DNA from: Conchocele bisecta
Taxonomy: Eukaryota; Mollusca; Bivalvia; Lucinida; Thyasiridae
Assembly: GCA_029237695.1 (NCBI GenBank)
Contig: CM055265.1
Coordinates: forward strand, 70,967,912 to 71,031,911
Length of the DNA: 64,000 nt
Reading direction: 5' to 3'
Each line of letters opens with the position of its first letter. The first letter of the stretch is position 1. Below, in pieces: positions 20,701 to 44,626 of this stretch. The translations under genes were made by a program, and so were the position numbers. The notes beneath the pieces are model-generated. The model did no database searches, was not told where the DNA came from, and was given only the letters and a program-made list of their open reading frames with translations.

Positions 20701-23508
20701 TCAAAAATGGCCATTGGACAGTTGAAAGGGATTTACAGTAAGCATTGTGTACCAAGTAACATGTGTCAGATGAAGTAGCCAATGTCTAGTGGGTTAGCTG
20801 TGCGAATAGTAATCATTGTGAAACACAGTTTCGTAAAAACAAAAGGAGAATGTACATACCTATATTTGGGTATACTGGAATATCAAAACTCACATAGCCG
20901 GAATGATCACATGCACAGTTATTGCACAGCGGCTTCTATCCAGTTTACTGAGCACTTGTGAGCAGGTATTTCCAATACATGTTTCGATTTGTGACAAGAT
21001 CAGATCCAGTCAACAATAATGCAAGAAAGACTATGATAAAATCGTAGTAGCTTTAAAATTAAACTAGCTAAACATTGGCGACTAAGCTGGACTCCATAAA
21101 GACAGCAAACTGTTGAAACCAGTTGCAGTCTGCTAGCACAATGCCAGATCTTACAGACTGCAGACGGTGCATCATATTGCCGTAACAGACACTTTCTCCT
21201 GAAGCAATGGAGAACATGAGTATATACCTTTGCAATGCAATATACAATACCATAATATACACTTTATTGGATAAAATGGATGGTTTGTCATATTTTCATC
21301 TTCTTATTTTAAAGGAAAACACATGTGCTGACAAGATATCATTTGAATAAACATAACTATAAGCCACATCAATACGCAATATATGTACATACGCAATTCA
21401 AGAATACATAATAGATGTAAATCATTGAAGTGGCAATGTATGTGACACACATATTTCCAGCGGCCATTTTGAAGATAATGGCGTCTGGTACCACAGTACT
21501 AGTTAGCAATAATCTCAACAGTTTGTGTTCATTGTATTATGAGTATAAGCAGAAGAAACACATATCTGCACTGCATTAAACATGTATAATAAATATTAGA
21601 TTGTCAAGTTTAAATGGTGGCCATTTTAAAAATAATATGGCAGCCATTTTAAAATATACTGAAATAATTATGCCAATATGTATTATTCATAATAAATAAT
21701 AATAAAAACACCACATATAATAACGTTGACGTTAAATATAAATTAATTTCAATGGTGGCATTTTGAAATTCAAAATTGCGACCATGCGGCTCGTAAAAAA
21801 TGGAATCAACTTCACTTGTGTTGTATATAGATATGTTTTCAAGCAGACACACACGTTCCAATCACAATATCATTTGAAAGAACATAACTATAGCCACAGA
21901 AATACTACAATGTTTTACAAATCTTCGATGTGGCGATGTACATAGTTTCGGTGGCCATTTTGAAAATTACGATTACTCGTAGCACAATACCAGTTAGCAA
22001 TAATCTCAGCAGAATGTGTTCAAAGAAATAGGAGCATAACCAGAAGGAAAAAACAAAATATTACCACGACATTCAAAAATGTAAAATAAATTCTGGATTT
22101 TCAATTTTGAAATGGCGGTATCTCAAAATGTATTGAACTCATCCTGCCAATATTCCATAATAATGTGTTTTTCGCCTCAAAAACATCACACATAATGACT
22201 TTGACCTCGAAATATAAAAGTCAATGATGGCCATTTTGAATTTCAAGATGGCGGCCATATGGCTTATAGAAAATAATGGAACCAACCCCAGTTTTGTTGT
22301 ATGTGGTCTATAGATGAAAAATAAACTTGGTTCAAACAATGGAGCAAAAAATTAAACAAAACCTAAAATAACGACATACCAGTATACACTACACTCTACA
22401 TAATTCCCCACCACCTTGTGTCACTTCGAACGTGCACAATAGCATGTTTGAGCTTTAATGCTATCATTATTACAATGAGTTACGTTTAATCCGGAGCTAA
22501 TATCAGATTAGTAATGGTGCCTAAAATAACACCACGGCGAACAATCCTCTTAGATCATCAATATGGCGTCTCTAGAGCTGTTATCGTCGGTAGAAAAGGG
22601 TCTTAATCTTAATTCCGCGGTACAACTTACAACCCAGCCTCTAGAAACTCGGAAGAAATTCCGTGGAAATCGGACAACTTTCCGAAGAAATTCGGAGTAT
22701 TGGTCAAAGGATTCCATGGAATAATCTTAGGAATTCCGACCATAAAAATCAGTAGCTTATTTAATGTTCGGGATATTTTCCGATATTAGAGCGGACAATT
22801 GTCCAAAATATGTCCGATGAAACCAATTTCCGATTTATTCCGACTCTGATGCCAGTAGCACGAACGCCACAACCCCAAGAAAAAAAGATAGTGTCACGGC
22901 TTGCTATGGCTGCCGTAGTGGTGTCTACGGCCGCGAATATAAAACAAGCTTGTATCACAATTGTGACAAACGCTGCAGCGACCGGATGTATGACTACGCC
23001 AGTTTTCTGATAGTCCTGTGCCATCTTTAATTTGGAGCACATATCTATGCAGACCGCCCCCCCCCCCCACCCCACCCCACACACACTCCTCCCCGTACCG
23101 CCTGATGTAGTCAACCACGTGTGAAGTGTGAACGTTGCAGTCATGACAAAATATGTACAATGTGCACAATGTGTTGAAAAACAAAACAGCATATACATTG
23201 AAACAAAAAGAAACATGACTTCCCACAGTTCTAACGACGACGGCTTGTTTCAGGTGGTTGCGGGCGAGGTTCCAAAAGGTGTACGGCGCCACAAAGACGT
23301 CGAGCCCATAGAAATGCACCCGGTTACGCCCATAGAAAAATACATCAAGGTGGAACCGTCGCCAAAACCCGTTCCCCAGACAACGGCAAGGCAGATTGGC
23401 TGGAGGTCAACAGAAAGGGCACTAGCCCTGGACAAATACGGGAAATACGCCAACCCCAAGGGCGGACTTATCAAACAGCTTAACTGGCCGCACGAGGCCA
23501 TATCTTAA
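2705..23508 (+). CDS. CIMIP1: Ciliary microtubule inner protein 1 (C20orf85-like), three-exon gene
   Basis: Joining 2705-2778, 15287-15368 and 23254-23508 gives a 136-residue protein, close to the 137 residues of the vertebrate protein. Seen in the sequence: the N-terminal block ends in VAQDQIW, followed by an Ala/His-rich stretch with WPNTWDFL, then HPVTPIEKYIKVEPSP, PVPQTT, IGWRS and the end LNWPHEAIS. This order of blocks matches C20orf85/CIMIP1 as I know it. The family is known as a small protein bound inside the lumen of axonemal doublet microtubules in motile cilia and sperm flagella, so a structural ciliary role is inferred. All junctions are GT-AG with compatible phase (2, then 0). 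The introns are 12.5 kb and 7.9 kb and full of MITEs. The start is the only ATG upstream of the conserved block within exon 1. A decoy ATG frame runs into exon 3 from the intron at 23128. Confidence 0.9.
3396..3614. repeat. MITE, TGTGGCTGTGACTGGAGA family (family D)
   Basis: It starts with TGTGACTGTGACTCGAGAAA and contains the hallmark inner palindrome GATCCAGATCAGCCTGTGC / CAGTCTGATCAGGATC. The right end is cut at CATAAGCCCC, where a tRNA B-box-like stretch GGTTCGAGCCCCGG begins (3611-3626), possibly another truncated element. Full ends are visible in the copy at 4240-4461. Confidence 0.75.
3908..4189. mobile_element. Foldback element with 21-bp repeats (FB21), copy 1
   Basis: Terminal inverted repeats TACGGAGCCTCACAGGGGAC and GTCCCCTGCGGGGCTCCGTA enclose tandem 21-bp units of the type AACAATTCGTTCCCACGAAT, in one orientation to about 4008 and inverted afterwards. 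The 6-bp sequence ACTATG is duplicated immediately outside both ends. The period of 21 leaves frames open on both strands, but nothing suggests coding. Confidence 0.8.
4240..4461. repeat. Family D MITE, full length
   Basis: Ends of about 30 bp are inverted copies: TGTGGCTGTGACTGGAGAAA on the left, TTTCTCCAGTCACAGCCACA on the right. The inner segment carries CGCACAGTCTGATCAGGATC. Other copies or parts in the window: 4936-5020, 6935-7010, 29965-30035, 46537-47257 (split), 61909-62145, 62660-62735 and 63170-63277. Confidence 0.8.
4515..4605. repeat. Half copy of family E MITE
   Basis: It matches the right half of the element at 614-821 (TTTTTGTAAATAGTTTTCA and a terminal ACATGGCTTTTCTCAT). The left half is missing. 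Confidence 0.6.
4621..4857. repeat. Family C MITE
   Basis: It runs from CGTTTCACTAAACTTCGTAC to TTTAGTGAAACGGCCCCC with the inner TTGAGCATA palindrome. It lies directly after the half family E copy. Confidence 0.8.
4936..5020. repeat. Family D MITE fragment
   Basis: Only the inner part is present: GAATGGCGAACAGCGTAGCC followed by GATCAGACTGCGCGGATGC. Confidence 0.6.
5132..5167. repeat. GGAT-type microsatellite
   Basis: Imperfect ATGG/GGAT tetranucleotide repeats. Confidence 0.7.
5415..5488. repeat. Short palindromic element, CCGGACACCCTGG family
   Basis: Inverted arms meet at CCGGACACCCTGGGAGG/TTCCCAGGGTGTCCGG, and the outer ends read TACAGTG and CACTGTA. A second copy with better arms is at 35103-35174. 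Confidence 0.75.
5814..6245. mobile_element. Inverted-repeat element with an expanded 17-bp arm and a nested MITE
   Basis: The left end ACAGTCGAACCTCCCCTAAC and the right end (CTCTACAACAG units read inverted, closing in TTGCACTGTA) are inverted copies. The right arm (6089-6243) is a tandem array of about 17 bp per unit (TTGCTGTTGTAGAGAGG). A fragment of the AACCCTTAGA MITE family (family G) occupies about 5915-6070. The end TACAGT suggests a Tc1/mariner-related MITE. Confidence 0.6.
6935..7010. repeat. Family D MITE fragment
   Basis: It contains GACCAGCGTAACCCCTGATC and GCATCTGCGCAGTCTGAT. Both ends are lost. Confidence 0.55.
7921..8074 (-). mobile_element. Two-hairpin element AB, truncated
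   Basis: Reverse orientation. Half of hairpin 2 (from TCCCGTTTCGGTGCCGCGCC) is followed by hairpin 1, which ends in GTTAACGGGATAA. The other half of hairpin 2 is missing. Confidence 0.75.
8253..8356. repeat. Perfect 104-bp palindrome, TACAGTGGGGTCAGCG family
   Basis: Two arms of 51 bp are exact reverse complements around a 2-nt loop (TT). The ends are TACAGTGGGGTCAGCG and CGCTGACCCCACTGTA. The terminal TA fits a Tc1/mariner-type target. A second copy is at 24147-24250 with one internal mismatch. Confidence 0.9.
9038..9328. repeat. Two direct 86-bp repeats flanking a 120-bp spacer
   Basis: The segments 9038-9123 and 9243-9328 both carry CGTATTTCGCCGATATTG and AATCAGTCATATTTTCCTT in the same orientation. 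The spacer contains degenerate family L motifs (CACTCATTTGAACCGT). Confidence 0.7.
10268..10523 (+). mobile_element. Two-hairpin element AB
   Basis: TTATCCCGTCAACACAGTGC begins hairpin 1, which is shortened inside. Hairpin 2 is complete. TAT flanks both sides (10265-10267 and 10524-10526). Confidence 0.8.
10653..11035 (-). mobile_element. Two-hairpin element AB with nested family L hairpin
   Basis: Reverse orientation. Hairpin 2 is interrupted at about 10713-10803 by a family L hairpin (CCGTCTCGCCGAGACGG) and an AT-rich leader, and the AATATCTGGCAAGGCTCAGG segment is repeated on both sides of it. Hairpin 1 follows to 11035. Confidence 0.75.
11218..12690. mobile_element. FB21-type foldback element with an amplified 58-bp left arm
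   Basis: The left end TATGGAGCCTAACAGGGGAC resembles the FB21 terminus, and the right end GTCCCCTGTGGAGCTCCGTA (12669-12688) is its inverted partner. The left arm is about 19 tandem units of 57-58 bp (11218-12340), each with GGAGCTCTGCAGGGGACATG and TATACTCCTTGCTATACTC. The core (12349-12660) holds 21-bp AACAATTCGTTCCCACG repeats in both orientations. Outside the right terminus, 12689-12730 holds one further unit in inverted orientation, so the arms are highly unequal. TATTTC stands next to both termini but also belongs to the unit. Confidence 0.75.
12740..12812 (-). mobile_element. Two-hairpin element AB, terminal fragment
   Basis: GAGAATAATAGGTTAGTGCC and the following segment match the hairpin 2 end. 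The remainder is replaced by a family L hairpin. Confidence 0.65.
12816..12884. repeat. Family L hairpin
   Basis: TATATGTTGTGACCACTC and its inverted partner flank CCGTCTCGCCGAGACGG. The arms are about 33 bp with few mismatches. Confidence 0.75.
12913..13106 (-). mobile_element. Two-hairpin element AB, shortened copy
   Basis: Hairpin 2 has lost most of its distal arm (from CTCTGCTTATTATTC it joins hairpin 1), and hairpin 1 stops before its terminal GGGATAA. Confidence 0.7.
13541..13846. repeat. Palindromic MITE, AAAGTATACTTTG family (family F)
   Basis: Ends TAGCCTATTTCATCAACATT and its inverse enclose paired AAAGTATACTTTG motifs and a central palindrome ATCACAGCCAATTTGGCTGT. Other copies are at 47866-48440 (interrupted) and a diverged one at 23757-24070. 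Confidence 0.8.
13862..14106. repeat. TTAA-flanked MITE, AACCCTTAGA family (family G)
   Basis: TTAACCCTTAGA on the left and TCTAAGGGTTAA on the right, with an inner palindrome TCATTTCCATTGGAAATGAT. TTAA at both ends is typical of piggyBac-type targeting (family knowledge). It is the same family as the copy on the CIMIP1 stop codon. Confidence 0.75.
14335..14637 (+). mobile_element. Two-hairpin element AB, complete copy
   Basis: The whole two-hairpin layout is present, about 303 bp like the copy at 1590. The flanks are CAT on the left and TAT on the right. Confidence 0.8.
15083..15257. repeat. MITE, GGTGGAAGACTCGGACC family (family M)
   Basis: The inverted ends GGTGGAAGACTCGGACCTG and CAGGTCCGATTCCACC and the inner pair CCATTACCCCCAACC / GGGTGGGGTAATGG form a foldback. 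It ends 29 bp before exon 2 of CIMIP1. A related copy is at 32334-32501. Confidence 0.7.
15287..15368 (+). CDS. CIMIP1: CIMIP1 exon 2
   Basis: The acceptor TTATATTTACAG ends at 15286 and the donor GAT|GTAAGT starts at 15369. The 82-nt exon completes Trp25 and encodes residues 26-52, including WPNTWDFL, which aligns with the Trp-rich segment of the family. Phase matches both neighbours. It would be missed by any open-frame length filter. Confidence 0.88.
15380..15600. repeat. Family D MITE
   Basis: GTAGCGGTGACTGGAGAAAT begins 12 bp after the exon 2 donor. The inner GTAGATCCTGATCAGACTG and the right end GCCCATAAGTCTCAT are present. Confidence 0.75.
15851..15922 (-). tRNA. tRNA-Thr(AGT)-like unit 1, degenerate
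   Basis: On the - strand it reads GGCTCCATAGCTCAGTGG and CCTGTCTAGTAAACAGG, an anticodon arm with loop CTAGTAA, so anticodon AGT (Thr). The acceptor stem has one mismatch (GGATCC at the 3' side) and the T stem is weakened. A run of T follows downstream (from AAAAAA at 15839-15844 on +). It is probably a decaying gene or a tRNA pseudogene. Confidence 0.65.
15955..16092. repeat. Duplicated tRNA-flanking segment, copy 1
   Basis: The segment with GTGAATGGCATG, ACTACACCAAAT and AAGTCGTGCTGGGACGAATC recurs in the same order at 17515-17659. It shows that tRNA units 1 and 2 belong to a duplicated block. Confidence 0.75.
17088..17159 (-). tRNA. tRNA-Thr(AGT)-like unit 2, degenerate
   Basis: Same D arm and anticodon arm (anticodon AGT) as the other units. 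The acceptor stem pairs with one G-U wobble. The T stem has several mismatches and the T loop is entered by C rather than G, so function is doubtful. A TTTCTTTTT terminator-like run follows on the - strand. Confidence 0.6.
17515..17659. repeat. Duplicated tRNA-flanking segment, copy 2
   Basis: Partner of 15955-16092. Shared blocks include GGTGAATGGCATG, CTACACCAAAT, GAGGGCTGTG and AAGTCGTGCTAGGACGAATC. Confidence 0.75.
17655..17712. repeat. Short palindrome
   Basis: CACCTGCAACAACAATATC and its inverse are separated by a few bases, with outer arms reading ACAAAACGCCA / TGGCGTTTTGT. Confidence 0.75.
17725..18105. repeat. Foldback element with AACAACAAC arms
   Basis: Outer ends GATCACGTGGTACTAACAAC and GTTGTAACCACGTGATC, middle arms ATATGGCGCATC / ACGCCATAT, and an inner palindrome around GTCGTTTTTGCGAAGAAT. 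Three nested levels of symmetry point to a MITE. Confidence 0.65.
18570..18641 (-). tRNA. tRNA-Thr(AGT), best-preserved unit
   Basis: A 72-nt cloverleaf on the - strand. The 7-bp acceptor stem GGCTCCA/TGGAGCC is perfect, the D arm carries AGCTCAGTGGTTAGAGC (A box), the anticodon stem is CCTGT/ACAGG with loop CTAGTAA (anticodon AGT, threonine), and the B box contains GAGTTCGATTC. One mismatch is seen in the T stem. Just downstream TTTCTTTTT can terminate RNA polymerase III. No intron. It could be functional, or the least decayed member of a repeated unit. Confidence 0.8.
18780..22360. mobile_element. Probable decayed foldback element with AAAATGGCCGCC arms
   Basis: The left arm (about 18800-19400) and right arm (about 21450-22330) carry related blocks in opposite orientation: GGGGTTGGTTCCATT with GCCGCCATCTTG on the left, AATGGAACCAACCCC with AAGATGGCGGCC on the right. 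Each arm holds several diverged repeats of the ATGGCCGCC motif. The middle (19.5-21.4 kb) has a short open stretch on the - strand ending QCDCAS...DGDEID and a stop at 19568, perhaps the tail of a lost ORF. I do not recognise a family. Confidence 0.5.
23254..23508 (+). CDS. CIMIP1: CIMIP1 exon 3 (terminal)
   Basis: The acceptor GCTTGTTTCAG ends at 23253. The 255-nt exon encodes residues 53-136 and the stop. It holds the most conserved block of the family (PVTPIEKYIKV, PVPQTT, IGWRS) and ends in NWPHEAIS. The base composition is much richer in G+C than the surrounding intron. The stop TAA (23506-23508) is part of the TTAA duplicated by a MITE insertion. Confidence 0.92.
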   Translation: MVAGEVPKGVRRHKDVEPIEMHPVTPIEKYIKVEPSPKPVPQTTARQIGWRSTERALALDKYGKYANPKGGLIKQLNWPHEAIS

Positions 23509-27551: not shown

Positions 27552-28965
27552 CAGGGTGATTAAAAAAACTTGTCCCCACTTCAAATGAACATCTTAAGCC
27601 ATACTCAAATTATATACGCTTACTCTATATATCAAAATAACAAACAATTATTCACCTTTTCAGTCAATACACAAATCCTCGGAATCAATTATGTTTTTCT
27701 TATTTAAATGACATGTTCTATATGTCCGCCCTTCTGCCGGATAACCAGTCCAAGCCTTTTTCTGAAGTGGCCGATGACCGCATTGCAAGTCTCCGAGCTT
27801 ATCTTCTTCGTCTCTCGCGCAATGGCTGTCTTCAACCCTTTATATTTGTTGGTCTGGGAGAATATACTCTCTCCTTAAGGTGACCCCAGAGAAAGAAGTC
27901 CAATGGGCTGAGGTCTGGTGAGCGTGGGGGCCATTCAATAAGTGTTTTGAGCGATATTACTTTGTTGTCAAACGAATTTTCAATCCAACTGATCGCGTCA
28001 GACGCGGTATGTGGTGCAGCGCCGTCTTGCTGAAACCATACATCAGATGTATCGTATCCTCTTCTGGTCAATTCTGGAACAAATTTTCCATTCAGAATAT
28101 GAAGCTACCTGTCTGTTGACACAGTTTGGGTTTCGCCTTGCTCTTCGAAGAAATAAGGTCCAATAACGCTCTTGCTGCTCAGTGCGGCCCATGCGGTTAC
28201 CTTCGCGCTGCGAAGTGACTTCTCCTCATAAATGTCTGGTTTATTTGCACTCCAAAAACGTTGATTATGTGTGTTGACTGCGGCATCAATGTAGAAGTGT
28301 GCTTCATCGGAAACCAAGTATTGTCAATGATTTCTGGATTTTCAATAGCTCAGTTAGCAAATTCCATTCTCCTGTCAATGTCTTCTTCCTTTAAGTGCTG
28401 CATGACTGAGATTTTATATGGTTTGAGTTGCAAGTCGTACTTCAATATTCTTTGGACTGATGAATAATTTGGAGTGTTTGTGAGATCCCTCAATACAATC
28501 CTCATTGACTTTCTCGGTGTCTCTTCTATTACTTTCCTCACGTTTTCAATGTTTTCATTTGAACGTCCATTTCTTTCTTTACCACTGTTTCCCTTCCATC
28601 TGCCGTGAACACTTCCCGATTCTTCAAATCTCTTGACTATTCTATATATCTGCTTCCGTGACAAGTATTCTCTGTCTGGATACTTCTTCTTCATCATCTT
28701 TCTCACAATATTAGGTGAGTTTCCGCATTCATAATACAACTTTACAACTTCTGCTGAGAAATCCATTTTCAAATGTTGATGACATCATACACTAAACTTG
28801 ATGACGTCATACACATGAAATGATGACGTCATCAGTTGTTGTTCATAATATTAGCAACATGGTGTTGAGTTGCATTAATTAATAAGCCATATTTTGATTC
28901 TCTATCACTCTTAGAAAGCAAAATATGATTATTTGAAGTGGGGACTAGTTTTTTGAATCACCCTG
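27552..28965 (-). mobile_element. Tc1/mariner-superfamily element with intact ends
   Basis: Terminal inverted repeats of about 35 bp (CAGGGTGATTAAAAAAAC on the left, GTTTTTTGAATCACCCTG on the right, two mismatches over the full length) flank a 1.41-kb element, and TA is duplicated at both outer edges. The transposase reading frame is on the - strand and broken. The intact ends mean it could still be mobilised in trans (inference). Confidence 0.9.
27704..28772 (-). pseudogene. Mariner-like transposase, disabled
   Basis: The N-terminal part has the helix-turn-helix region typical of this group: FSAEVVKLYYECGN, SRKQIYRIVKRFEESGS. The catalytic region follows with SDEAHF (first Asp), QQDGAAPHTA (second Asp) and WPPRSPDLSPLDFFLWG (third Asp), about 36 residues between the last two, a DDD triad of the Tc1/mariner superfamily. 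The total of about 355 codons fits a full-length transposase. Breaks seen: an in-frame stop after RMEFAN near 28350, a one-base loss just before SDEAHF, a stop near 28105, and a one-base loss near 27832. The tail after that reads to a stop at 27704. It cannot make active protein as it stands. Confidence 0.9.
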
Positions 28966-30035: not shown

Positions 30036-30418
30036 TGAATCCGCATATATTCTGCTCTGATTTTGAGATTTTCCTTCTTCCCTACACAAGAAATATGGGA
30101 TTTGACCCTGTTAATCGACGTAAATTGACTTTAGCTGACGATAAGCCATTAAACAATATTATATAAATAAATAATACTTAATAGTAATCTTGTGGAGCTA
30201 ACCTAGTTTCAGTACTTTCAGTACTTTGATTCATTTTGACATTGGCAAAACTGCCATTTTATAAGCAGAAACTATTTCTGTTTGGGGGTTCCACTTATAG
30301 GGTCATAAACACTTAAAACCAAGACTTATAAATAGCTATAATGCGGAAATGATATGCTGGGATATATACCTTTCAAGAAAATGTAGTGGCAATTTTCCCC
30401 CCTCTCCACCCCACACGT

Positions 30419-30925
30419 AGCATCTCGTTACCACGACTTAGCTATGTCGTTCCCTCGAGATAGCACATCGTTTCCTCGAGAGAGCATCTCGTTCCCACGA
30501 GATAGGATCTTGTTCCCACGAGATAGAATCTCGTTACCACGTGTTAGCTATGTCGTTCCCACGAAATAGCATCTCGTTAACATGACATAGCATCTCGTTC
30601 CCTCGAGACAGCATCTCGTTCAAACAACAAAATAAGCCAATAGAAGAGCAGATATTACTCCACCATCTTGGATGACAATGGTGCTGCATTTTGATTGGCT
30701 AACTACATGTATGTCGTGGGAACGAGATAGAAAATAATTCGTGGGAACGAGATGCTATCTCGAAGGAACGAGATGCTATGTCGTGCGAACGAGATAGCTA
30801 CCTCGTGGGAACGATATCCTATCTCGTGGGATCGAGATTCTATCTCGTGAGAACGAGATTCTATCTTGAGGAAAGGAGATGCTATGTCGTGGAAACGACA
30901 TAGCTGTCGTGGGAACGAAAACAAT
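30419..30925. mobile_element. Foldback element with CATCTCGTTCCCACGAGAT repeats
   Basis: The left arm (30419-30621) is a tandem series of 19-21-bp units such as ATCTCGTTCCCACGAGATAG. The right arm (30711-30925) carries the same units inverted. The 90-bp loop contains CACCATCTTGGATGACAATG. The units share TCGTTCCCACGA with the FB21 family but no CAGGGGAC terminus is present. Confidence 0.7.
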
Positions 30926-31130: not shown

Positions 31131-31709
31131 TGTATGTTTAAGCTTAATTAATACATGGTACTGTTGTAGCAGTTCTTAAGACTCACCATACGGCAAATAT
31201 ATCGTACAAGTGGGCCTTTCTGAGATACATACAATTGGATAGAGGAAACAGACACCCATTTGCAGTTTGATACGTATCTAAAGTGTTAGCTAGATGAACC
31301 ATGAACCAAACGCCCCCCAGCGAACATTGTAGACCCTGACAGATTGTATGTTCGGCTGCATAGGCTGTTCAGAGATTGTGCAGGTTGTCAGGGCCGTAAC
31401 TACACTGAGTAGTTGCCTCCTTGTTTGTTTGGACTCTTCATTTTTTTAGGATTTAATCTTCAAATATTGGCCTAGTTTAATTCCTAGCTCCGCTCAGTCG
31501 ATTGTTTTGCCTTCTCGTTTTTGGCTTCCTGGTTACGGCACTGGTTGTATGCTTTATACCCGTTTTGGATGCTTACGCGAATTCGACGTTGAAGTCAATT
31601 ACAATGTTTTCTAATGCATACTCCACATTTCTCCAGCCACGGCCACCATTTCAATACTCCCGGGAAAATCTTTCCGGGACGAACCATCAATGCGACGAAC
31701 GTAGTTACC

Positions 31710-31820
31710 CTTGACCGGTTACATTATGCGCAGACACACTTCCGGTACAAAAATGGCGCCAAATCGACGCTGACGTTACTATGGCGTCACGACGTCGTTG
31801 TTATTGTCGCCATCTTGTTT
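31710..31820 (+). promoter_or_regulatory. Promoter-like motif cluster in copy A
   Basis: In about 110 bp are found TATGCGCAGAC (NRF1-like half site), CTGACGTTACT, GCGTCACGACGTC (CRE-like) and CGCCATCTTG (YY1-like). The same cluster is kept in copy B (34380-34482). Function is inferred from motif look only. Confidence 0.4.
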
Positions 31821-32040
31821 ACCAAGAGACAGACAGCTTTCCAAAATATCTCACTATTTTTGCGAATATCACGGATTTCAGCCCCAGAGTTTCAACAATT
31901 CCTGTTCATATAGCCACCATAGAGATCTACGTATACAGAGGTAAGACAGAATAAGGCGCTCCGTGATGTTCCTTACGTTTATTAGAAATAATTGTTAGTA
32001 TTTTATTCCTAACATACCCCACCCACTACTGACACTACAG

Positions 32041-33065: not shown

Positions 33066-33577
33066 TACGGAGCCCCGCAGGGGACATGGATTATTTTGTT
33101 ATTAATTCTTTCCCGCGAAATAAAAATTCGTTCCCTCAATTTGACAATTCGTTCCCACGAATTAACAATTCATTCCCACGATATAACAATTCGTTCCATG
33201 AAAAAACAATTCGTTCCCTCGAATTAACAATTCGTTCACACGAAGTAACAATTCGTTCCCTCAATTTAACAATTGGTTCCCTCGAATTAACAATTTATTT
33301 TCACGATATAACAATTCGTTCCCACGAATTAACAATTCGTTCCCACGAAATAACAATTCGTTCCCTGGAATTAACAATTCGTTCACACGAAGTAACAATT
33401 CGTTCCCTCAATTTAACAATTCGTTCCCTCGAATTAACAATTCGTTCTCACGAATTAACAATTCGTTCCCACGAATTGTCGTTCCCACGAATTGTTAAAT
33501 TGAGGGAACGAATTGTTAGTTCGTGGATTGTTAATTAATAAAAAAAAAAAATGCTACGTCCCCTGCGGGGCTCTGTA
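33066..33577. mobile_element. FB21 foldback element, copy 3
   Basis: TACGGAGCCCCGCAGGGGAC and GTCCCCTGCGGGGCTCTGTA are the inverted ends, and CAATTG is duplicated outside (33060-33065 and 33578-33583). The inside is about 18 units of 21 bp, AACAATTCGTTCCCACGAAT type, nearly all in one orientation, turning only at the far right near 33475. Confidence 0.85.
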
Positions 33578-33805: not shown

Positions 33806-34920
33806 AGCAGTTCTTAAGACTCACCATACGGCAAATATATCGTGCAAGTGGGCCTTTCTGAGATAAATACAATTGGATAGAGGAAACAGACACCCATTTG
33901 CAGTTTGATACGTATCTAAAGTGTTAGCTAGATGAACCAGGAATGTTTCCCAAACGCCCCCCAGCGAAAATTGTAGACCCTGACAGATTTTATGTTCAGC
34001 TGCATAGTCTGTTCAGAGATTGTGCAGGTTGTCAGGGCCGTAACTACACTGAGGCACGAGGAGGCAGTTGCCTCCTTGTTTGTTTGGCCTCTTCATTTTT
34101 TTAGGATTTAATCTTCAAATATTGGCCTAGCTTAATTCCTAGCTCCGCTCAGTCGATTGCATGTTTTGCCTCCTCGTTATTGGCTTGCTGGTTACGGCAC
34201 TGGTTGTATGCTTTATACCCGTTTTGGATGCTTACGCGAATTCGACGTTAATGTCAATTATAATGTTTTCTAATGCGATACTCCACATTTCTCCAGCCAG
34301 GTGCCACCATTTCAATACTCCCGGGAAAATCTTTCTGTGGCGAACCATCACTGGGACGAACATAGTTACCCGTGACCGGTTACATTATGCGCAGACACAC
34401 TTCCGGTACAAAAATGGCGCCAAATCGACGTTGACGTTACTATGGCGTCACGACGTCGTTGTTATTGTCGCCATCTTGTTTACCAAGAGACAGACAGCTT
34501 TCCAAAATATCTCACTATTTTTGCGGATATCACGGATTTCAGCCCCAGAGTTTCAACAATTCCTGTTCATATAGCCACCATAGAGATCTACGTATACAGA
34601 GGTAAGACAGAATAAGGCGCTCCGTGATGTTCCTTACGTTTATCGGAAATAATTGTTATTGTTTTATTACTAACATACCCCACCCACTACTGACACTACA
34701 GTTCCACGTTTTGCTGCCGAGAAAATGTTGTCTGTTAAACGCATTAAATCTAAAAATTATTTAATCGTAAGTACTTTTTCATCAATAACAAAAAAGCCAC
34801 CGTCCGTCAAGCTCTAGTTGACGACATTCCATCAAATATTGTCTTGAAGCTAATTATGCAAGATTACAAGAACATGCACTGAAAAACTTACCAAATGCTG
34901 GATTTGTTATGTATATCTAT
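33806..34920 (+). repeat. Dispersed 1.1-kb duplication, copy B
   Basis: Partner of 31168-32275, with small differences such as an extra GGCACGAGGAGGCAG at 34053-34067. The transposon-like edge CAGGGCCGTAACTACACTG is at 34033. Both copies may be the truncated 5' end of one hAT-like element (CAGGG edge) together with genomic flank. Confidence 0.85.
34702..34766 (+). other. Exon-like segment with ATG, copy B
   Basis: The acceptor ACACTACAG, an ATG at 34725 with 14 open codons (MLSVKRIKSKNYLI), then a GTAAGT donor. It follows a 100-bp intron-like spacer whose donor is at 34602. No downstream exon was found, so this is probably an orphaned gene or transposon start. Confidence 0.4.
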
Positions 34921-35174: not shown

Positions 35175-35934
35175 TGTAGAAAATGACCAAGACCTCTATT
35201 ATACTAATGTAGTACCGCAATCGTATTTACAAGAGAACATGATGAATCTGAATTAAATATGTGTCTAATACACGAGGGTAGTGAGATGCATGACGTCTTT
35301 TTATACCAACGCCAGTACAGACACCACCGGAAATGTTCATTGTCTACTTCCTGATCGTGCGATTTCGTTGACTGTCTAATTCCCGATGTGAGCACACCGT
35401 CCCCTTGTTACCAATCCACCCTACGGAGATCACTAGATATTGGTCGGCCAATAAGTGTTGTGCAATTTCACAACACGCTTCCCATTTCCATCACCGGATG
35501 TAGATCTAATGTTTGGCATTAAATTGCATTTTTTATAAGTTTATTGCTTACCCTTGTTTCTTGACCAATGAAAGCATAGCATTTCATGTCAAGTAATCAC
35601 ACATTGCGGCAACGTCAATTAAATTTATTCATTAAATGTACCAATGTGTAAACGTTATATTTCGAACCAGACGTCACGGCTTGTCAGAAATGCATGTGGC
35701 ATGCATTCTCTTGTCCGCTTCTGTGTCAAACGGCCAAACAGGTGATAGTATCGCAGGTCGAAATCGAAAGTTGGGCTAAATTCGAACAGACATATGTACG
35801 CGAAAGGGCGGGAAAAACAATAAGAACGTAATGGTTCACATATTGAATTTTTAAGAAACTCACTCGCTCAAAATTATTTATTAAAAATTAAATATACATG
35901 TATGAAGTATTGCTAATCACCCTCCTTGGGTAAT
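35175..35934. other. Intergenic, nothing recognised
   Basis: Mixed-composition sequence between repeats with no exon, RNA or repeat signature that I recognise. Confidence 0.35.
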
Positions 35935-36360
35935 TCATTATAATGGTAAAGGAACACGATTTATTATATGCCTACCAATGAAATACATAATTATACGATG
36001 TAAATAAAAGTCATATGTTCTTATCGATGAAATAAACAACTTCCGGTGAAAAATACGACTTCTTCCGCTATCTATATTCATAACGCGCATCGGCAGTAAA
36101 AACAGCGCAACTAGGCTGAAATACACATTCATTACCGTATACAGTCTAAAAAAACTGCTAATTTCCATGGCGCGGTATATAATAAATAGAATATTCATAT
36201 TTTTGCAACGAATATGACATATATGTTCATCTCGTGGTGTGAAATGTCCATATGTCACTCGTTCCTGACGGCACTCGTGAACTATAGACATCTCACACCA
36301 CTCGATGAACATATATATGTCACATTCGTTGCAAAAATATGAATATCCTCTATATATTAA
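35935..36360. repeat. Foldback MITE upstream of gene 2 exon 1 (copy 1)
   Basis: It contains TCATATTTTTGCAACGAATA and its inverse around GTGTGAAATGTCCATAT, plus an upstream block with AACTTCCGGTGAAAAATACG. The same two blocks recur at 37070-37445. The 162-codon open frame across it on the - strand is a repeat artefact. Confidence 0.7.
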
Positions 36361-36446
36361 CTTTTTTAACGTTTTTGTTATATCCAAGTACATGTACGAG
36401 TATACTAAGCGACTAATTATGTACAATTGGGGTTCCTAAACGATGC

Positions 36447-36575
36447 AATAGTTTTTTACTAATCTGGGCCCCGTTGCTGAAAACTTCTGATAGCTTAACA
36501 TACTGTTAAATCCTTAACAGTGTTAAGGATTTAACAGTCTGTTAAGCTAACAGAAGTTTTAAACAACCGGACCCT
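36447..36575. repeat. Palindromic MITE just upstream of gene 2
   Basis: AACTTCTGATAGCTTAACA and its inverse enclose CCTTAACAGTGTTAAGG. The outer ends read GGGCCCCGTTGCTGAAA and TTTAAACAACCGGACCC. Confidence 0.75.
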
Positions 36576-36660
36576 GTTTCATCATTGTTTGTGCATATCT
36601 AAAAAATAACAGGCCATATCTGTAGCATTTTTAAGTGTATCCAATGAATGTGTTTCAGCC

Positions 36661-36816
36661 ATGGAAAGACTAGACGTGATGTTCAGAGCCTGCCGCACCG
36701 TACCCGTTGACTACGTCCCCTGGCGCGAGAGAGTGGACGAGTTTATGGAGGCCGAGTTACTCGATTTCGAGTTTTATGAGAACGAAGAGTGGAGGCAGCT
36801 ATACATAGTGCCAATA
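36661..36816 (+). CDS. Gene 2 exon 1
   Basis: It encodes residues 1-52 (MERLDVMF...LYIVPI) with a CAGCCATGG start and the donor ATA|GTGAGT at 36817. It is richer in G+C than its neighbourhood and too short for usual open-frame filters. Confidence 0.78.
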
Positions 36817-39800
36817 GTGAGTTAATCTTGAGGGGGTGGGGCATGGGATAAAACCGTTAGTCTGTTATTGACATTTGTTTGTTGACAAAATACTTACTGT
36901 CCTGTGAAGTGTCAATTGTAACTTATTTTGATATAAGTGTGTATTTATATTTCTCGTAAACTGTATCATATTATTCGACTCCATCCCCAGCATGCATGCA
37001 TTACCGAATATAATACCACCACTGATTTGATTTAACCATATGTCAAATATCCAATAAAAATATAAATAATATTTATTATATACCTACCCATGAAATACAG
37101 TTATACGATGTAAATAAAAGTCATATGTTCTCATCGATGAAATAAACAACGTCCGGTGAAAATAGGACTACTTCCGCTATCTATATTCATAACGCGCATC
37201 TGCAGTGCCGGAATGCAAATAGGCTGCAAATACACATTCATTACCGTATACAGTCTAAAAAACTGCTAATTTCCATGGAGCGGTATATAATAAATAGAAT
37301 ATTCATATTTTTGCAACGAATATGACACATGTTCATCTCGTGGTGTGAAATGTCCATATTTCACGAGTGAAATATGGACATTTCACACCACTCAATGAAC
37401 ATATATGTCATATACGTTGCAAAAATATGAATATCCTCTATGTATCCCTACTTAACAAGAAATACATGACATACACTAGGACAGTGATAGGTGAAAATGA
37501 ATTCGGCGTGCCGTAGTGGTCTAATATCATTTGAGACACGCCATGTGATTTTGTACCTTCGGACATCTGCGTAATTTCATGAAATACGTTTACAAAATTT
37601 ACAATGTTTTCCGTGAATTTCGTGAAAAGTTGACAACATTTTCAGAGTACATGCCAAATCCTACATTCTCCATGTACTCTGAAAATGTTGTCAACTTTTG
37701 ACTGTATTTATGTAAACGGATTATATGAAATTGCGCAGTTGTCCGAAGGTACAAAATAACATAGCGTGTCTCGTTTGTAAACATGTAGACCAACTTTCTC
37801 AACAATATGAAATGTTGGATATTGTGGAGACCATTAATTGTGACATATGTCACTCCATATTCGTTTGCGATTCAATAAACTGAAGTTCAAATAAAAGTTC
37901 TACACTTTGGACGCTTATTGTAAAGTTGTTAAACAGCTTTCCTTATGTTCAACAATACTTCAGTAACCAAGAACCCACTCTTCCAACGTTTCTGCACAGG
38001 GCCTTTATCAAGCAATTAGTTTCTACTAAAAGCTAAGTAGTACCTATTTCGAAAATAGATACCACTTAGCGTTTAGTAGAAACCAATTCCTTGATATTTT
38101 CCTAGTGCTGATACGTTGGACGAGTGGGTTCTTGGTTACTGCAGTATTGTTCAATATATAACAACTGTTATTGAGTTTGTTTAATGTGTGTGATCCGTCG
38201 GCATTATACACGCCATACCGAGCTCCGGCTACCGGTCTGGTACCACAGTTATACACCACAGTTTCCACGATGTATGCATGGTCGTGTGGTCCATGTATGT
38301 ATGGTTGTGTGTGTGTTTGCAGGAATATCTGAACCCGCTGATCGACCCACACCCCGCTAGTAGTATCGGTGAGTGAGAGGATGAGTGACATTTTATTGTA
38401 GATTGCAAGTATCCCGTATGCGTGTGTATCTGCGTGGAAATGTTTAGTACGGGTGAATATATATAACGCGAATGTTCTGTCTGTAACACAGGGCGGCTTA
38501 CTGTAAGCCGCCCTGCGTTACAGACAGAATGTTATGGTATATAGTGAGTTACATTTTCGCAAACTATATGACTGATTGAGAAGATAAGTGGAAGTTTATT
38601 TCAGTGCAGTGAGCGCCTATATACTTGCAATTGAGAGGTTGAATACCATTTTATGTTTAGTGTCAAAAGCACGTGTACATTTGCATACATGTGAATGTTT
38701 GGTGATTGAGAGCACGGGTGACATTTTATTCTGGAATTATGGGCGCCAGTGTCAGTGTACATATGCATGTATATAAGAGATTGAGTGGCAGCGAGACGCT
38801 ATATATGAGACACGCCATGTGACTTTGTACCTTCGGACGTCTGCGTAATTTCATTAAATACGTTTACAAAATTTACAATATCTTTCATAAATAAGTCAAA
38901 AGTTGACAACATTTTATATTCCGCATGCACTGTGAACAATAGTTGGAATGTGTCTAATATAACGAGGATGATGGTACTGTTATGACGATATACGTTTTAT
39001 TGAGTGAGAGAAAAGAAAGAAAATAATGTCGTGTAATAATATTTGTTTCCAATCCCCAGATTCGTCCGGTCACGTGCCCGGCCCGGGAGGAAGTTTGGAC
39101 CCCCACCTAGTACTGCAAGCCCGCCCTCCGAAACGGAAGGCGGAGGATCAGCTCTTCGGCCGCGCCAACAAGATAGCCCGTTCTTCACAGTCCGTCGAGA
39201 TCGATTACCGCATCCACCATCGCGACGGCTTCTTCAGACCCACCATGCGTAAGTGAAAGTAAACCGGTATTAACCCTTACAACCCTGGATATTCTACATT
39301 GGCTGTTTCATACCGATGTTCGGACTATACTATTAACCCTTGGAACCCGAAAGCCCGCTATAACGGTTTCTGCAAACAGTGCAGATCGTAACGAGCCGTC
39401 TCATCAGGATCCGCACTTTTTCATATTTCTGAGAACAAAAACAACTCGTTTTCATAAATGGACTAGTCTGAAAACCATTTTGTGACTATTGGATTGGTTG
39501 CAAAATTAACATATCAAAATCCATTTCAGTTACTTAGGGGGTGACAGTGTTAATGACAAAATGTGTTTTTTAGAGGTGAATAACAGTGACAAATCCTGCA
39601 GATCCTGATGAGCCGGCTCATCGGGATATGCCGTGTTTGCACATGTTGGCTTTCTGGCCTTATGGGTTTAAAGAGTTAATGCGTATACATGTATTTAGTT
39701 TATACACCACCCTGTGTTCATCATTAGTGGTGCCAGCATTCATGCCCACCACGGGCCGATCATAGCCGAAAATATGAGAGCCCCGAGACTTACTATCGAT

Positions 39801-42800
39801 GGTGTCTCACTGCCGGGTCGAAACTCTACCACACGTGCACACCAGAGTACGTTTTTACAACTTTGCGGACGGTATGTTGTATCCGCCGACATCAGTATTA
39901 TTGAGCTGTACATCAACATAGGCTATCACATACTCTCCAATAGGCAAAAAATATGAAAACGTATTAACACCAAAAACAATGAATATGTATGTAAGACCCA
40001 GATCGGGGGTCAATCTCAGAACGGGGGTTATTCCTGGCTATTAGCCCCCGTTCTGGGATTTGGTCGCCATTCTGGGGCTGATCCCCGATCTGAGTCTTAC
40101 ATATGAACAGCGTGAAACAGTGTTTTAGGATCGGAACTTTCTTTATTCATTCACGATTCGACGTTACTGCGAACATAGTACGGTTCCGTCCGTCAATCGA
40201 ATGCCCAATGTGTGTATGCGATTCGCCCATTCATGTCTAACTGTCAAGCATGTCGTTTTCCAGGCGCCGTCCGCAGGTCGACAGCCGAATACCACTGCTA
40301 TGGCAAGTCCGACGCCCTGGACCCGGGATCATTCGCCTCCGTCGCCGCCCGCGACGACTGGGCCATCGAGCCCTGGCTTCGGCGTGACCGGGCCCGCAGG
40401 CTCCGGCGCTGGGCCCTTAATGTGCAGGTGAGTCAACATTCTGAGACCTACTGGTATTGAGATGTGCCCACCATACTACTCATGGTGGATGTACTGAGGT
40501 AGTGACGGAGTTACGTACTGGGCCCTCAATGTGCATGTGAGTCAACATGAGGAGACATTAGCGGGTGTTGAACTAAGAACACCATACTACTCATGGTGCA
40601 TGTATTGGTGTAGTCACGGAGATTCATGCCCGATGTGCGATGCATTGATGCTATTCTTGCAGTTATTTGAAAATGATTGTTTTTTGGAATTCGCCTGTTT
40701 GTTTGGCAACAGTATGTCACAACGATCCACGGTACACGGATATTCATATATAAGACGGTACTTATGTCAGTCAAAAAGACATTTAGTGTCCACATCAATA
40801 CTGATGCAACTTTGTTAGAAAGAAATAGTTCCAGTGACCATTTGTCCCTATGTCTTTCCTGCACTGGGTGACGAGTGGTGAGGCACGTAAAATATCTGCC
40901 AGGTTTGGATATTAGATATCCACGAACCTGTTCATGACGTGTACTCTATATGCAAACTGATGACAAATGTAAGTCGTACTCCGACAGCGTCTACTGTCAT
41001 CAACAACGATATATAAGCCCTTAAAGAGCGAGAGAATACTATGGTAGCATGATGTTTTCTTCTTCTTCCTAAATTGTCTTATTTCTTTGGGAAAACAACT
41101 GTTTTGGCAGATGCCAATGATATGGAATGGAAACTAACTTCAAGCGCTGCCAATGTATGTTTTTGTTCATAGCTGTTGCAAATAGGACATGTATGTGTCT
41201 ATTCATTATAAGCATCAACATCCTTGGTAGTATTGTCTGTATGTGTCCATTCATTATAAGCATCAACACAATTGGTAGCACATCCAACCCCCTTACTAGC
41301 AATGTCTGTATGTGTCTATTCATTGTAATCTTCAACCCCTTGGTATAATTATCTGTACGTGTCCATTCATTGTGATCGTCAAACCCCTTGGGATCATTGT
41401 ATGTATGTGTCCATTTTTTGTAATCGTCAACACCCTTGGTATCATTACCTGTATGTTTCTATGCATTGTAATCGTCAACCCCTTGGTATCATGGTCTGTA
41501 TGTGTATATTCATTGTAAGCGTTAACCCCTTGTTAACATGGTCTGTATGTGTATATTTGCTGTAAGCGTCAACCGCTTGGTATCATTGTCTGTATGTGTC
41601 TATTCATTGTAACCATCAACCCCCTTTGTACTATGGTCTGTATGTGTCTATTCATTATAATCGTCAACACTCTTACTAGCATTGTATGTATGTGTCTATT
41701 CATTGTAACCGTCAAGCCCCTTGGTGCCATTGTCTGTATGTGTCTATTCATTGTCACCGTCAACCCTCTTGATACAATTGTCCGTATGTGTCTATTCATT
41801 TCATTGTAACCGTCAACCCGCTTTGTGCCATTGTCTGTATGTGTCTATTCATTGTAACCATCAACCCCTTTGTACCAATGTATGTATGTGTCTATTCATT
41901 GTAACCGTCAACTCCCTTGGTATTATTGTATGTATGTGTATATTTATTGTAACCGTCAACCCCTTTGTAGCATTGCCTGTATGTGTCTATTCATTATAAT
42001 CGTCAACACTCGTATTACCATTGTATGTATGTGTCTATTCAGTGTAACCGTCTACCTCCTTGGTATCGTGTTCTGTATGTTTCTATTCTTTATAAGTGTC
42101 AACCCCCTATGAATCATTGTCAGTATGTGTCTATTCATTGCAAGTGTCAACCCCCTTGGTAGCATTGCCTGTATGTTTCTATTCATTGCAAGTGTCAACA
42201 CCCTTGGTACCATTGCCTGTATGTGTCTATACATTTCAAGTGACAACCCCCTTGGTAGCATTGCCTGTATGTGTCTATTCATTGCAAGTGTCAACCCCTA
42301 GGTATCATTGTATGTATGTGCATATTCATTGCAAGTGTCAACCCCCTTCGTACCATTGCATGTATGTGTCTATTCATTATAAGTGTCAACCCCCTAGGTA
42401 TCATTGCATGTATGTGTCTATTCATGGCAAGTGTCAAGCCCTTGGTACCATTGTATGTATGTGTCTATTCATTGCAAGTGTCAACCCCCTAGGTGTCATT
42501 GTATGTATGTGTATATTCATTGCAAGTGTCAACCCCCTTCGTACCATTGCATGTATGTGTCTATTCATTATAAGTGTCAACCCCCTAGGTATCATTGTAT
42601 GTATGTGTCTATTCATGGCAAGTTTCAAGCCCTTGGTACCATTGTATGTATGTGTCTATTCATTGCAAGTGTCAACCCCCTTGGTAGCATTGCCTGTATG
42701 TGTCTATTCATTGCAAGTGTCATCCCCTAGGTATCATTGTATGTATGTGTCTATTCATTGCAACTGTCAACCCCCTTGGTACCATTGCCTGTATGTGTCT

Positions 42801-43739
42801 ATACATTTCAAGTGTCAACCCCCTTGGTATCATTGCCTGTATTTATCAGGTAACCTGCCCTGTATTGGCCGAATACGTACTGACTGATAACATATTGTTG
42901 TATCAGGCATTGACCTGATACAAACATCCGGGTTACAATGAAGTGAATATTGACGTTCCATTGGTCGGATGACGTCACGTGACGTTACCGAATGACGTCA
43001 GTGTAATGACGCAATGTAAACAAGTCCGCGTTCTGTCCACAGATAACAACGTCATATGTGGTCATTTTCGAGCATAAAAAGTTACCTGATAAACAGAATA
43101 CCAGGCTTGTGTCTTTTGATATCAAGTTTATCAGGCTCGGCTCGGAAACGGTAGGGATTCCTCGGCAAGCCTCGGAATTCCTACGCGTTTCCTAGCCTTG
43201 CCTGATAAACTTAATATCAAAAGACACTAGCCTGGTATTCTCTATGTGTCTATTCATTGCAAGTGTCAACCCCCTACGTATCATTGTATGTATGTGTCTA
43301 TTCATTATAATCGTCTACCCCCTTGGTACCATTGTCTGCATGTGTCTATTTAGTGTAACCACCAATCCCCTTGTTACCATTGTCTGTATGTATCTGTTCA
43401 TTGTAATCGTAAATCCCCTTGTTACCATTGTCTGTATGTATCTGTACATTGTAATCGTAAATCCCCTTGCTACCATTGTCTGTATGAATCTGTCCATTGT
43501 AATCGACACTCCAAATTGGTAATATGGTCTGTATATGTTCATTACAGTACACCAAGGCAAAGCGGCAGGTGAACGAGGCATACAAAGTCTCCCACCCGGC
43601 CGAGTACAGGGCCTACATGGTCGAATACAAGGCCTACATGGCGCACTACCGGGCGAGCATGGCCGAATACAAGGCGGCATACAGGGAGGCGGGCCGGGCG
43701 GCATACAGAGAGGCACTGAGTGACGTCGACCTCACATAA
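36661..43739 (+). CDS. Unrecognised five-exon gene, 248-residue basic protein with heptad-repeat tail
   Basis: Joining 36661-36816, 38323-38368, 39060-39248, 40264-40427 and 43548-43739 gives one uninterrupted 248-residue frame. All four introns are GT-AG, with phases 0, 1, 1, 0 matching across every junction, which is unlikely by chance. Residues 1-67 are acidic (MEAELLDFEFYENEEW). Residues about 68-130 are Gly/Pro-rich, then basic, with PPKRKAED near 90-97, which looks like a nuclear localisation signal. Residues about 131-185 hold an Arg-rich segment (WLRRDRARRLRRW). Residues 203-230 are four seven-residue repeats: AEYRAYM, VEYKAYM, AHYRASM, AEYKAAY. Only two cysteines; no signal peptide or membrane segment. 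I do not recognise a family and propose no function. The start ATG has context CAGCCATGG, and an acceptor-like TTTCAG ends at 36658, so an upstream non-coding exon is possible. Confidence 0.8.
37070..37445. repeat. Foldback MITE, copy 2
   Basis: Same blocks as 35935-36360 (AACGTCCGGTGAAAATAGG; TCATATTTTTGCAACGAATA and its inverse). The hairpin centre is GTCCATATTTCACGAGTG. Confidence 0.7.
37530..37775. repeat. Family E MITE
   Basis: GAGACACGCCATGTGATTTTG and its inverse, with an inner palindrome GACAACATTTTCAGAGTAC / GTACTCTGAAAATGTTGTC. A half copy is at 38806-38935. Confidence 0.75.
37945..38155. repeat. Palindromic element in intron 1
   Basis: CAGTAACCAAGAACCCACTC and its inverse near 38122-38141 enclose TTTCTACTAAAAGCTAAGT / CACTTAGCGTTTAGTAGAAA. 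Confidence 0.7.
38323..38368 (+). CDS. Gene 2 exon 2
   Basis: A 46-nt micro-exon between GTGTTTGCAG and ATCG|GTGAGT. It encodes EYLNPLIDPHPASSI plus the first base of Asp68. The phase fits both neighbours. Confidence 0.72.
38369..39059 (+). other. Gene 2 intron 2
   Basis: 691 bp. It contains a short near-perfect palindrome at 38465-38536 (ATTCTGTCTGTAACGCAGGG type arms) and half of a family E MITE at 38806-38935. Confidence 0.7.
39060..39248 (+). CDS. Gene 2 exon 3
   Basis: The acceptor TTTCCAATCCCCAG ends at 39059 and the donor ATGC|GTAAGT starts at 39249. It encodes the Gly/Pro-rich linker, the PPKRKAED basic motif and IDYRIHHRDGFFRPTM. G+C is high for the region. The other two frames over it are shadows. 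Confidence 0.8.
39332..39552. repeat. Family H MITE, inverted
   Basis: TTAACCCTTGGAACCCG, then TAACGAGCCGTCTCATCAGG, and the tail TTCAGTTACTTAGGGGGTGA, the reverse of 24711-24967. Confidence 0.7.
39989..40102. repeat. Palindromic element with CCCGTTCTGGGAT motifs (family K)
   Basis: GTAAGACCCAGATCGGGGG and its inverse enclose paired AGAACGGGGG / CCCCCGTTCTGGG. A related segment with three to four CCCGTTCTGGGATT units lies at 44112-44222. Confidence 0.7.
40264..40427 (+). CDS. Gene 2 exon 4
   Basis: The acceptor GTCGTTTTCCAG ends at 40263 and the donor CAG|GTGAGT at 40428 is the consensus. It encodes AVRRSTAEYHCYGKSDA, then the acidic-aromatic DDWAIEPW and the basic RRDRARRLRRW. G+C is clearly above that of the flanking introns. 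Confidence 0.82.
41185..43530 (+). repeat. 48-bp minisatellite in gene 2 intron 4
   Basis: About 40 diverged units of 48 bp, each with TCTGTATGTGTCTATTCATTG and TCAACCCCCTTGGTA (read in parts), interrupted at 42843-43242 by a two-hairpin element. The period is a multiple of three, so frames stay open on both strands, up to 263 codons on +. These are not genes. The last unit runs into the splice acceptor of exon 5. Confidence 0.9.
42843..43242 (+). mobile_element. Two-hairpin element, sister family of AB
   Basis: It is inserted cleanly into the minisatellite, with TAT duplicated on both sides (42840-42842 and 43243-43245), giving an exact length of 400 bp. Hairpin 1 runs from TTATCAGGTAAC to GTTACCTGATAA (43085-43096). 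Hairpin 2 runs from AGAATACCAGGCT to AGCCTGGTATTCT. Its loop (GGCTCGGCTCGGAAACGG and CGTTTCCTAGCCTTGCC) resembles the AB loop, while the arms differ. Confidence 0.88.
43548..43739 (+). CDS. Gene 2 exon 5 (terminal)
   Basis: The acceptor TGTTCATTACAG ends at 43547. It encodes 63 residues: YTKAKRQVNEAYKVSHP, the four heptads AEYRAYM to AEYKAAY, an Ala/Arg tail and SDVDLT, then TAA at 43737. The regular Tyr/Met/Ala spacing suggests a helical or coiled segment. Confidence 0.85.
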   Translation, partial: YTKAKRQVNEAYKVSHPAEYRAYMVEYKAYMAHYRASMAEYKAAYREAGRAAYREALSDVDLT

Positions 43740-43811
43740 ACACGACCACACTTGCTCTACTGTACCAGACTTCCAATGCACCAGATAGCAATGCTTTTTG
43801 TTCGCGTTATA

Positions 43812-44275
43812 ATTGCGACATGTCGTGTCAGTTTGTACATAAGAAGATGTGCGATATCTCGTGAAATATATTTACACAATTTACGATATATGAAGTAAAT
43901 TACTTCGAAATTTGACGAATTCTACAGTGCAAATGTGGAATAGAATTCCGCAGAAAATATGTCGCGTTTGTCACAGAGGTCAAACGTACGTTACCCACCG
44001 TGAAGTGATTAGTAATGGAGTGAATGGAACGTATACCTTTCCTGTTTCTAATGAAAGTCGTGTTTTGTAAATGGCCCATGTGTACAATGTTCCTACCTTT
44101 TCCGGTCATTGTCAGATTGGCCCCCGTTCTGGGATTGTCGTCGCGTTGTTCGGCCCCCGTTCTGGGATTAGCCCTCGTTCTTGGATTGGTCCCCGTTCTG
44201 GGACTGACCCCTGGGTCTATATTTCACGAAAAATCGCACATCTTCTTAGGTACAAAATCACATGGCTTGTCTCAT
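43812..44275. repeat. Family E MITE with nested family K insertion
   Basis: GACATGTCGTGTCAGTTTGTAC and TACAAAATCACATGGCTTGTC are the ends. At about 44112-44222 several CCCGTTCTGGGATT units ending in TGACCCCTGGGTCTA are inserted. Confidence 0.7.
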
Positions 44276-44626
44276 ATTTGTGAAGACAACTAATGTACGT
44301 CAACACCCGCCATTTAGGCCAGCTCCGCCCTACAAATATCTCTGAAACTACTGGATCAATTTTGTTTTGGTTCAGTATGGCGAAAGTATATAGCATTTCA
44401 TACTGGGGACGCCGTCCTCATAGCTGTAATCTTGTGAGAAAACATGGTATCAGCGATACTATATCATGTCTCATATAATTCATAGCCTGTGCTAAACAGA
44501 GGATGAAATAATTGTTAAATAATTTCTGTTAAACCGCTGTAACTGTAAAATTAAGCACTAATTGTGAAACACAATTATTTTGTGAACTGATCATACTACA
44601 CCACATTTAGAAAGAAAGGGTTCTGG
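44276..44626. other. Intergenic, nothing recognised
   Basis: AT-rich sequence after gene 2. No clear polyadenylation signal close to the stop codon was found here. Confidence 0.35.

Follow-up and report, generated by a model that had tools for sequence, protein, structure and literature searches.

A candidate five-exon orphan gene with a tyrosine- and methionine-rich tail in the bivalve Conchocele bisecta

The closest described counterparts of the locus reported here, a spliced candidate gene in a window of 64,000 nucleotides from the genome of the bivalve Conchocele bisecta (Thyasiridae; assembly GCA_029237695.1, contig CM055265.1, positions 70,967,912 to 71,031,911 of the forward strand), are the orphan genes of animals. 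Weisman et al. report that undetectable homologues explain a large number of orphan cases in fungi and insects (PMC7660931). The candidate gene, which occupies positions 36661 to 43739 on the plus strand of the window (the whole stretch analysed, whose numbering is used throughout), resembles animal orphan genes in being intact, spliced, short, partly repetitive and free of homologues in a protein collection that contains mollusc sequences; it differs from them in that it may be young or merely undetectable. For a newborn gene, five exons would be a large number. The mitochondrial ORFans of mussels, to which a paper is reportedly devoted (PMC4979158), are a different matter.

A spliced, protein-coding gene without a recognizable family is the best-supported reading of this locus, because its frame is intact, the coding pattern extends over all five exons, a gene finder arrives at the same model, and no family match was obtained even though a control gene in the same window, CIMIP1, was findable. 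As judged from the DNA, we lean towards a five-exon bivalve gene whose product may either be confined to a narrow clade or diverge too fast to leave detectable relatives.

Exon-intron structure of the candidate gene

When joined, the exons of the candidate gene (156, 46, 189, 164 and 192 nt) comprise 747 nt and encode 248 residues followed by a TAA codon, without an internal stop. The sequence-only reading of this DNA had proposed five segments linked by four GT-AG introns in phases 0, 1, 1 and 0 into a single 248-residue frame, with a first exon of 156 nt and a second of 46 nt, and all of these elements are present at the borders it had named. They are given below together with the ranks of their splice sites among the 4068 GT and 2872 AG dinucleotides of the window; repeats resembling miniature inverted-repeat transposable elements are referred to as MITE-like, and NLS stands for nuclear localization signal.

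36661..36816, plus strand: coding exon 1, 52 residues, acidic (net charge -7); open frame, G+C by codon position.58/.29/.67
36817..38322, plus strand: intron 1, GT-AG, phase 0, MITE-like inverted repeats inside; donor rank 114/4068, acceptor rank 28/2872
38323..38368, plus strand: coding exon 2, small (46 nt); coding pattern, recovered by the gene finder
38369..39059, plus strand: intron 2, GT-AG, phase 1; donor rank 20/4068, acceptor rank 43/2872
39060..39248, plus strand: coding exon 3, 63 residues, NLS-like PPKRKAED, symmetric (phase 1-1); coding pattern
39249..40263, plus strand: intron 3, GT-AG, phase 1; donor score 0.01, rank 363/4068, the weakest donor of the model; acceptor rank 14/2872
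40264..40427, plus strand: coding exon 4, arginine-rich WLRRDRARRLRRW, net charge +5, G+C 0.71; coding pattern
40428..43547, plus strand: intron 4, GT-AG, phase 0, 3.1 kb; donor rank 1/4068, acceptor weak, rank 330/2872
43548..43739, plus strand: coding exon 5, 63 residues and TAA, Tyr/Met tail; coding pattern, two predicted helices
44740..44745, plus strand: possible poly(A) signal, the first AATAAA/ATTAAA past the stop codon, about 1 kb downstream; motif only

Because of the exon lengths, the small exon 2 is needed to bring exons 1 and 3 into a common frame. The start codon lies in the setting TTTCAG/CCATGG. An untranslated upstream exon possibly joins at the TTTCAG before the ATG; as an acceptor, this site falls below the threshold of the splice weight matrix used. 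The product would have a mass of 29 kDa and be mildly basic (isoelectric point 8.4). The features previously noted in it, an acidic N-terminus, the PPKRKAED stretch, the arginine-rich segment of exon 4 and the Tyr/Met units of exon 5, were all found again. When modelled from its single sequence, exon 1 gave a poor structure (predicted local distance difference test, pLDDT, 59.6).

Coding signal and calibration with CIMIP1

The frame fixed by the splice sites is open in five of five exons and has the usual coding pattern, in that G+C content is lowest at the second codon position and highest at the third, which in exon 2 shares the maximum with the first. One further open frame on the same strand is present in each of exons 3 and 4. 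Over the whole frame, the G+C content at codon position 3 (GC3) amounts to 0.75, as compared to 0.61 in the 84 codons of the last CIMIP1 exon and to an overall G+C of 0.31 to 0.49 in the 1-kb blocks of the window. The earlier description of the segments as G+C-rich can be accepted: exons 3, 4 and 5 (0.62, 0.71 and 0.60) lie above 99.3% of the window stretches of the same length, and exons 1 and 2 (0.51 and 0.54) get no higher than the 96th and 93rd percentile. No defect is seen in the five frames, the eight splice dinucleotides or the start and stop codons, which makes it highly improbable that we are dealing with a recently silenced gene or a non-coding RNA that has kept an open frame, even though two of the splice sites are weak and the candidate is known here from its sequence alone.

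The same structure was obtained with a purpose-written gene finder that uses generic splice matrices, average amino-acid frequencies and a GC3 of 0.55 and was not trained on the species. At intron penalties of 8 and 11, its best gene on either strand is the five-exon model, base for base, with scores of 66.1 and 54.1, respectively, versus 11.4 and 10.3 for the best gene on the minus strand. The concern that automated calls could miss this gene was thus not borne out, at least for one simple generic finder. When parts of the model were masked, the best remaining chain (66.1 unmasked) dropped to 57.3 for the start of exon 1, 57.7 for the splice sites of exon 2, 51.9 for exon 3, 43.9 for exon 4 and 54.2 for exon 5.

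Could a chance chain of open, G+C-rich patches produce such a result? The repeat structure of the window does give rise to long open frames elsewhere, with up to 263 residues in a minisatellite whose 48-bp unit is a multiple of three, although such frames are no evidence of coding. On the other hand, none of 600 shuffles of the plus strand that kept the dinucleotides within blocks of 100 (n = 250), 200 (n = 100) or 500 bases (n = 250) reached the score of 66.1 at penalty 8, the maxima being 29.4, 24.9 and 26.0, respectively. Among sets of 100 shuffles, the candidate scored 54.1 versus a maximum of 24.3 against the global background at penalty 11, and 22.5 versus 8.5 (penalty 8) and 10.5 versus 4.8 (penalty 11) against a background of local composition. 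Together with the low score of the reverse strand, these values leave a chance origin barely credible.

The performance of the finder could be gauged with a gene of known family in the same window:

2705-2778, 15287-15368, 23254-23508, plus strand: CIMIP1/C20orf85 (Pfam LLC1), apparently complete, with introns of 12.5 and 7.9 kb; found by the finder and by comparison with relatives

With introns of up to 15 kb allowed, CIMIP1 is the second-best plus-strand gene at penalty 8 (score 19.8), and at penalty 11 its last exon only is returned, as a single open frame. Its three exons align piecewise with bivalve relatives, the exon joins agree, and the open frame containing the last exon has a Pfam match to LLC1 (1.6e-18). 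As the finder recovers the structure of CIMIP1, it can work on this DNA. Within intron 2 of CIMIP1, three tRNA-Thr(AGT) genes follow each other on the opposite strand (15850-15922, 17087-17159 and 18569-18641).

Several observations weigh against the five-exon model. The CIMIP1 score of 19.8 lies within the range of the best genes in the shuffles (up to 29.4), so that CIMIP1 can serve to calibrate the recovered structure but not the score; unlike CIMIP1, the candidate exceeds the best shuffled gene more than twofold. Against the local background at penalty 11, the single open frame with the last CIMIP1 exon reaches 9.3, close to the 10.5 of the candidate. A run at low penalty, after which the two penalties above were chosen, yielded a chain of 44 exons that retained exons 2 to 4, lacked exon 1 and kept the first 21 nt of exon 5. 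We discarded this chain as implausible, and recovery of the candidate thus depends on a sensible penalty. Moreover, the donor of intron 3 and the acceptor of exon 5 are weak, exons 1 and 2 contribute only about 8-9 score units each and can be replaced in other chains, and a long senseless chain still attains its 54.2 when exon 5 is masked. Weighing this against the intact frame, the coding pattern in all five exons and the outcome of the shuffles, we consider the candidate very probably a protein-coding gene, as the sequence-only reading had suggested.

Searches for relatives and the repeat landscape

No relative of the candidate was found in the protein collection at E<=10, either with the whole product (808 candidates) or with residues 118-248 (195 candidates), which were searched apart to bring single-exon calls nearer the length limits. 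The Pfam search, queried with the complete product and separately with exons 1, 3, 4 and 5, returned no family over the cut-off, its best rows having E-values of 0.054-0.15. Across the family searches, all rows are at chance level: SEN1_barrel (0.15 and 0.064), UBA_At5g58720 (0.81 and 0.21), Alanine_zipper (0.054) and a carboxypeptidase (0.65), along with one PHROG (0.77). Searches of PDB sequences (for the full product and for exons 4-5) and of PHROGs gave nothing or a single chance-level row, in line with the initial impression that no known family is recognizable.

The collection does contain mollusc proteins that can be found. With the frame that contains the last CIMIP1 exon, 49 of 50 candidate proteins were retrieved; 20 of them are named by organism, and 16 of these are molluscan. 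By E-value, the best named relative is from Mactra antiquata, 75% identical across 87% of the query. Others come from Dreissena polymorpha (75% over 63%) and from Batillaria, a snail (77% over 67%). A bivalve origin of the DNA, as previously assigned, agrees with these matches and is its likeliest reading; the family is not fixable from CIMIP1.

The absence of matches would also be expected if the candidate were an old, widespread animal gene whose homologues have diverged below detection, which we regard as possible, if less likely than a narrow or fast-diverging gene. The search demands shared 5-residue words and scales its E-values to 5.8 billion sequences, so that a fast-evolving relative could escape it. 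In addition, the nearest CIMIP1 protein is at most 81% identical (among entries without an organism name), and the collection may thus contain no very close species. The detection failures described by Weisman et al. (PMC7660931) point in the same direction. A structure of five exons including a small one would, in our estimation, sit more comfortably with an established gene than with one that has only just arisen. Against an old gene stands the lack of any Pfam family at the cut-off.

Descent from a transposon or virus gene that was domesticated by the host appears improbable. Many MITE-like inverted repeats do occur in the introns and flanks of the candidate gene (35500-44500 examined), its product carries NLS-like and basic stretches, and another part of the window contains a transposase-like helix-turn-helix fragment. 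This fragment, presumably part of a transposase, is an open frame of 144 residues on the minus strand (28353-28784) that matches DUF4817 at 1.2e-10. However, Pfam and PHROGs provided no match, a scan of viral contigs brought up three pattern matches without revealing a relative, a search of the window for further copies of the exons found none that was significant (E 0.12 for the best other match), and the codon-position pattern is of the same sort as that of the host gene CIMIP1.

The locus is rich in tandem repeats, one of which lies within the coding sequence:

40409..40621, plus strand: 111-bp tandem duplication, 1.9 copies, 79% matches; takes in the final 19 nt of exon 4 together with the donor that follows
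41285..42842, plus strand: 48-bp minisatellite in intron 4, 32.6 copies, 82% matches
43239-43534: second 48-bp array in intron 4
43598..43675, plus strand: 21-bp tandem repeat in exon 5, 3.7 copies, 70% matches, encoding seven-residue units; found by a tandem-repeat scan

Continued beyond its donor, the frame of exon 4 soon encounters a stop. Apart from the repeat in exon 5, 21-bp arrays are common in the window; arrays with related units (AATTCGTTCCCACGAATTAAC type) are located at 33104-33477, 4009-4146, 12347-12553 and 30418-30918, some of them in the opposite orientation. Two open frames about 2.6 kb apart (31593-31913 and 34143-34574) have translated ends that are near-identical by eye and did not match Pfam; they likely represent a dispersed repeat.

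The partly repeat-encoded tail and its possible function

The four Tyr/Met heptads that had been noted in exon 5 hold up in part. Three units are regular (AEYRAYM, VEYKAYM and AHYRASM); tyrosine occupies heptad positions 3 and 6 of the first two, and the pattern fades thereafter. The fourth (AEYKAAY) is degenerate, and this short repeat loses its regularity beyond the third unit. Between the four units, the proportion of synonymous differences (pS) exceeds that of nonsynonymous differences (pN) in the coding frame (0.56 versus 0.33), as compared to pS/pN values of 0.46/0.37 and 0.38/0.43 in the other two frames; units 3 and 4 show no synonymous excess (0.50/0.53). The excess, which comes from only 84 bases, is a weak sign that selection may have acted on the protein.

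Modelled alone from its single sequence, exon 5 is predicted to form a helix at residues 3-15 and then a 45-residue helix at residues 17-61, with a mean pLDDT of 89.1. This long helix is what the tail shares with coiled coils. It differs from them in showing no sign of a hydrophobic a/d seam: the hydrophobic moment of the 40-residue tail is not above that of shuffles (p = 0.20 at 100 degrees and 0.61 at 102.9 degrees), which gives no support to a classical amphipathic coiled coil. The alanine-zipper family PF11839, described in Pfam as major outer-membrane lipoprotein, has a similar alanine-rich pattern over exon 5, whereas the candidate has tyrosine and methionine at heptad positions; with 14.2 bits versus a cut-off of 23.1, membership was rejected. 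We also see a likeness, on our own reading, to the last helix of the HMG box, a Lys/Ala/Tyr-rich helix with tyrosines spaced by 3-4 residues. This candidate was likewise rejected, as Pfam gave no HMG row at E<=10 for the whole protein or for exons 1, 3, 4 and 5 apart.

The acidic N-terminus, the PPKRKAED stretch, which we take to resemble an NLS, and the arginine-rich exon 4 are compatible with a nuclear protein, a location for and against which we see the scales as evenly poised. Our best guess for the tail, which we rate below the nuclear localization, is that it may bind a partner or itself. Both the NLS and the binding roles draw on motif likeness only, a point that weighs against building on them too heavily. 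It is nevertheless tempting to sketch how the parts could act together. The PPKRKAED stretch of exon 3 would direct the protein to the nucleus, where the acidic N-terminus and the arginine-rich exon 4 may contact nuclear proteins or nucleic acid. The tail, its long helix partly made through duplication of a 21-bp unit, would present tyrosines whose spacing alternates between 3 and 4 residues in the first two to three heptads, and it would self-associate or bind a partner. Taken as a whole, a gene of one bivalve clade whose nuclear product acquired a Tyr/Met helical tail through in-frame expansion of a 21-bp unit is a doubtful proposition.

Our analysis supports the view that the gene is real-looking and intact, yet of a common orphan kind and of modest novelty. 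Orphan genes are common, and the general lesson is therefore a modest one. For molluscs, the candidate represents a well-delimited orphan gene whose exact exon borders can be used for primers and read mapping, and its tail is a small case in which a minisatellite-like duplication may have built a protein helix. If the proposed scheme were true, the tail of this clade-restricted gene would constitute a new module for oligomerization or chromatin binding.

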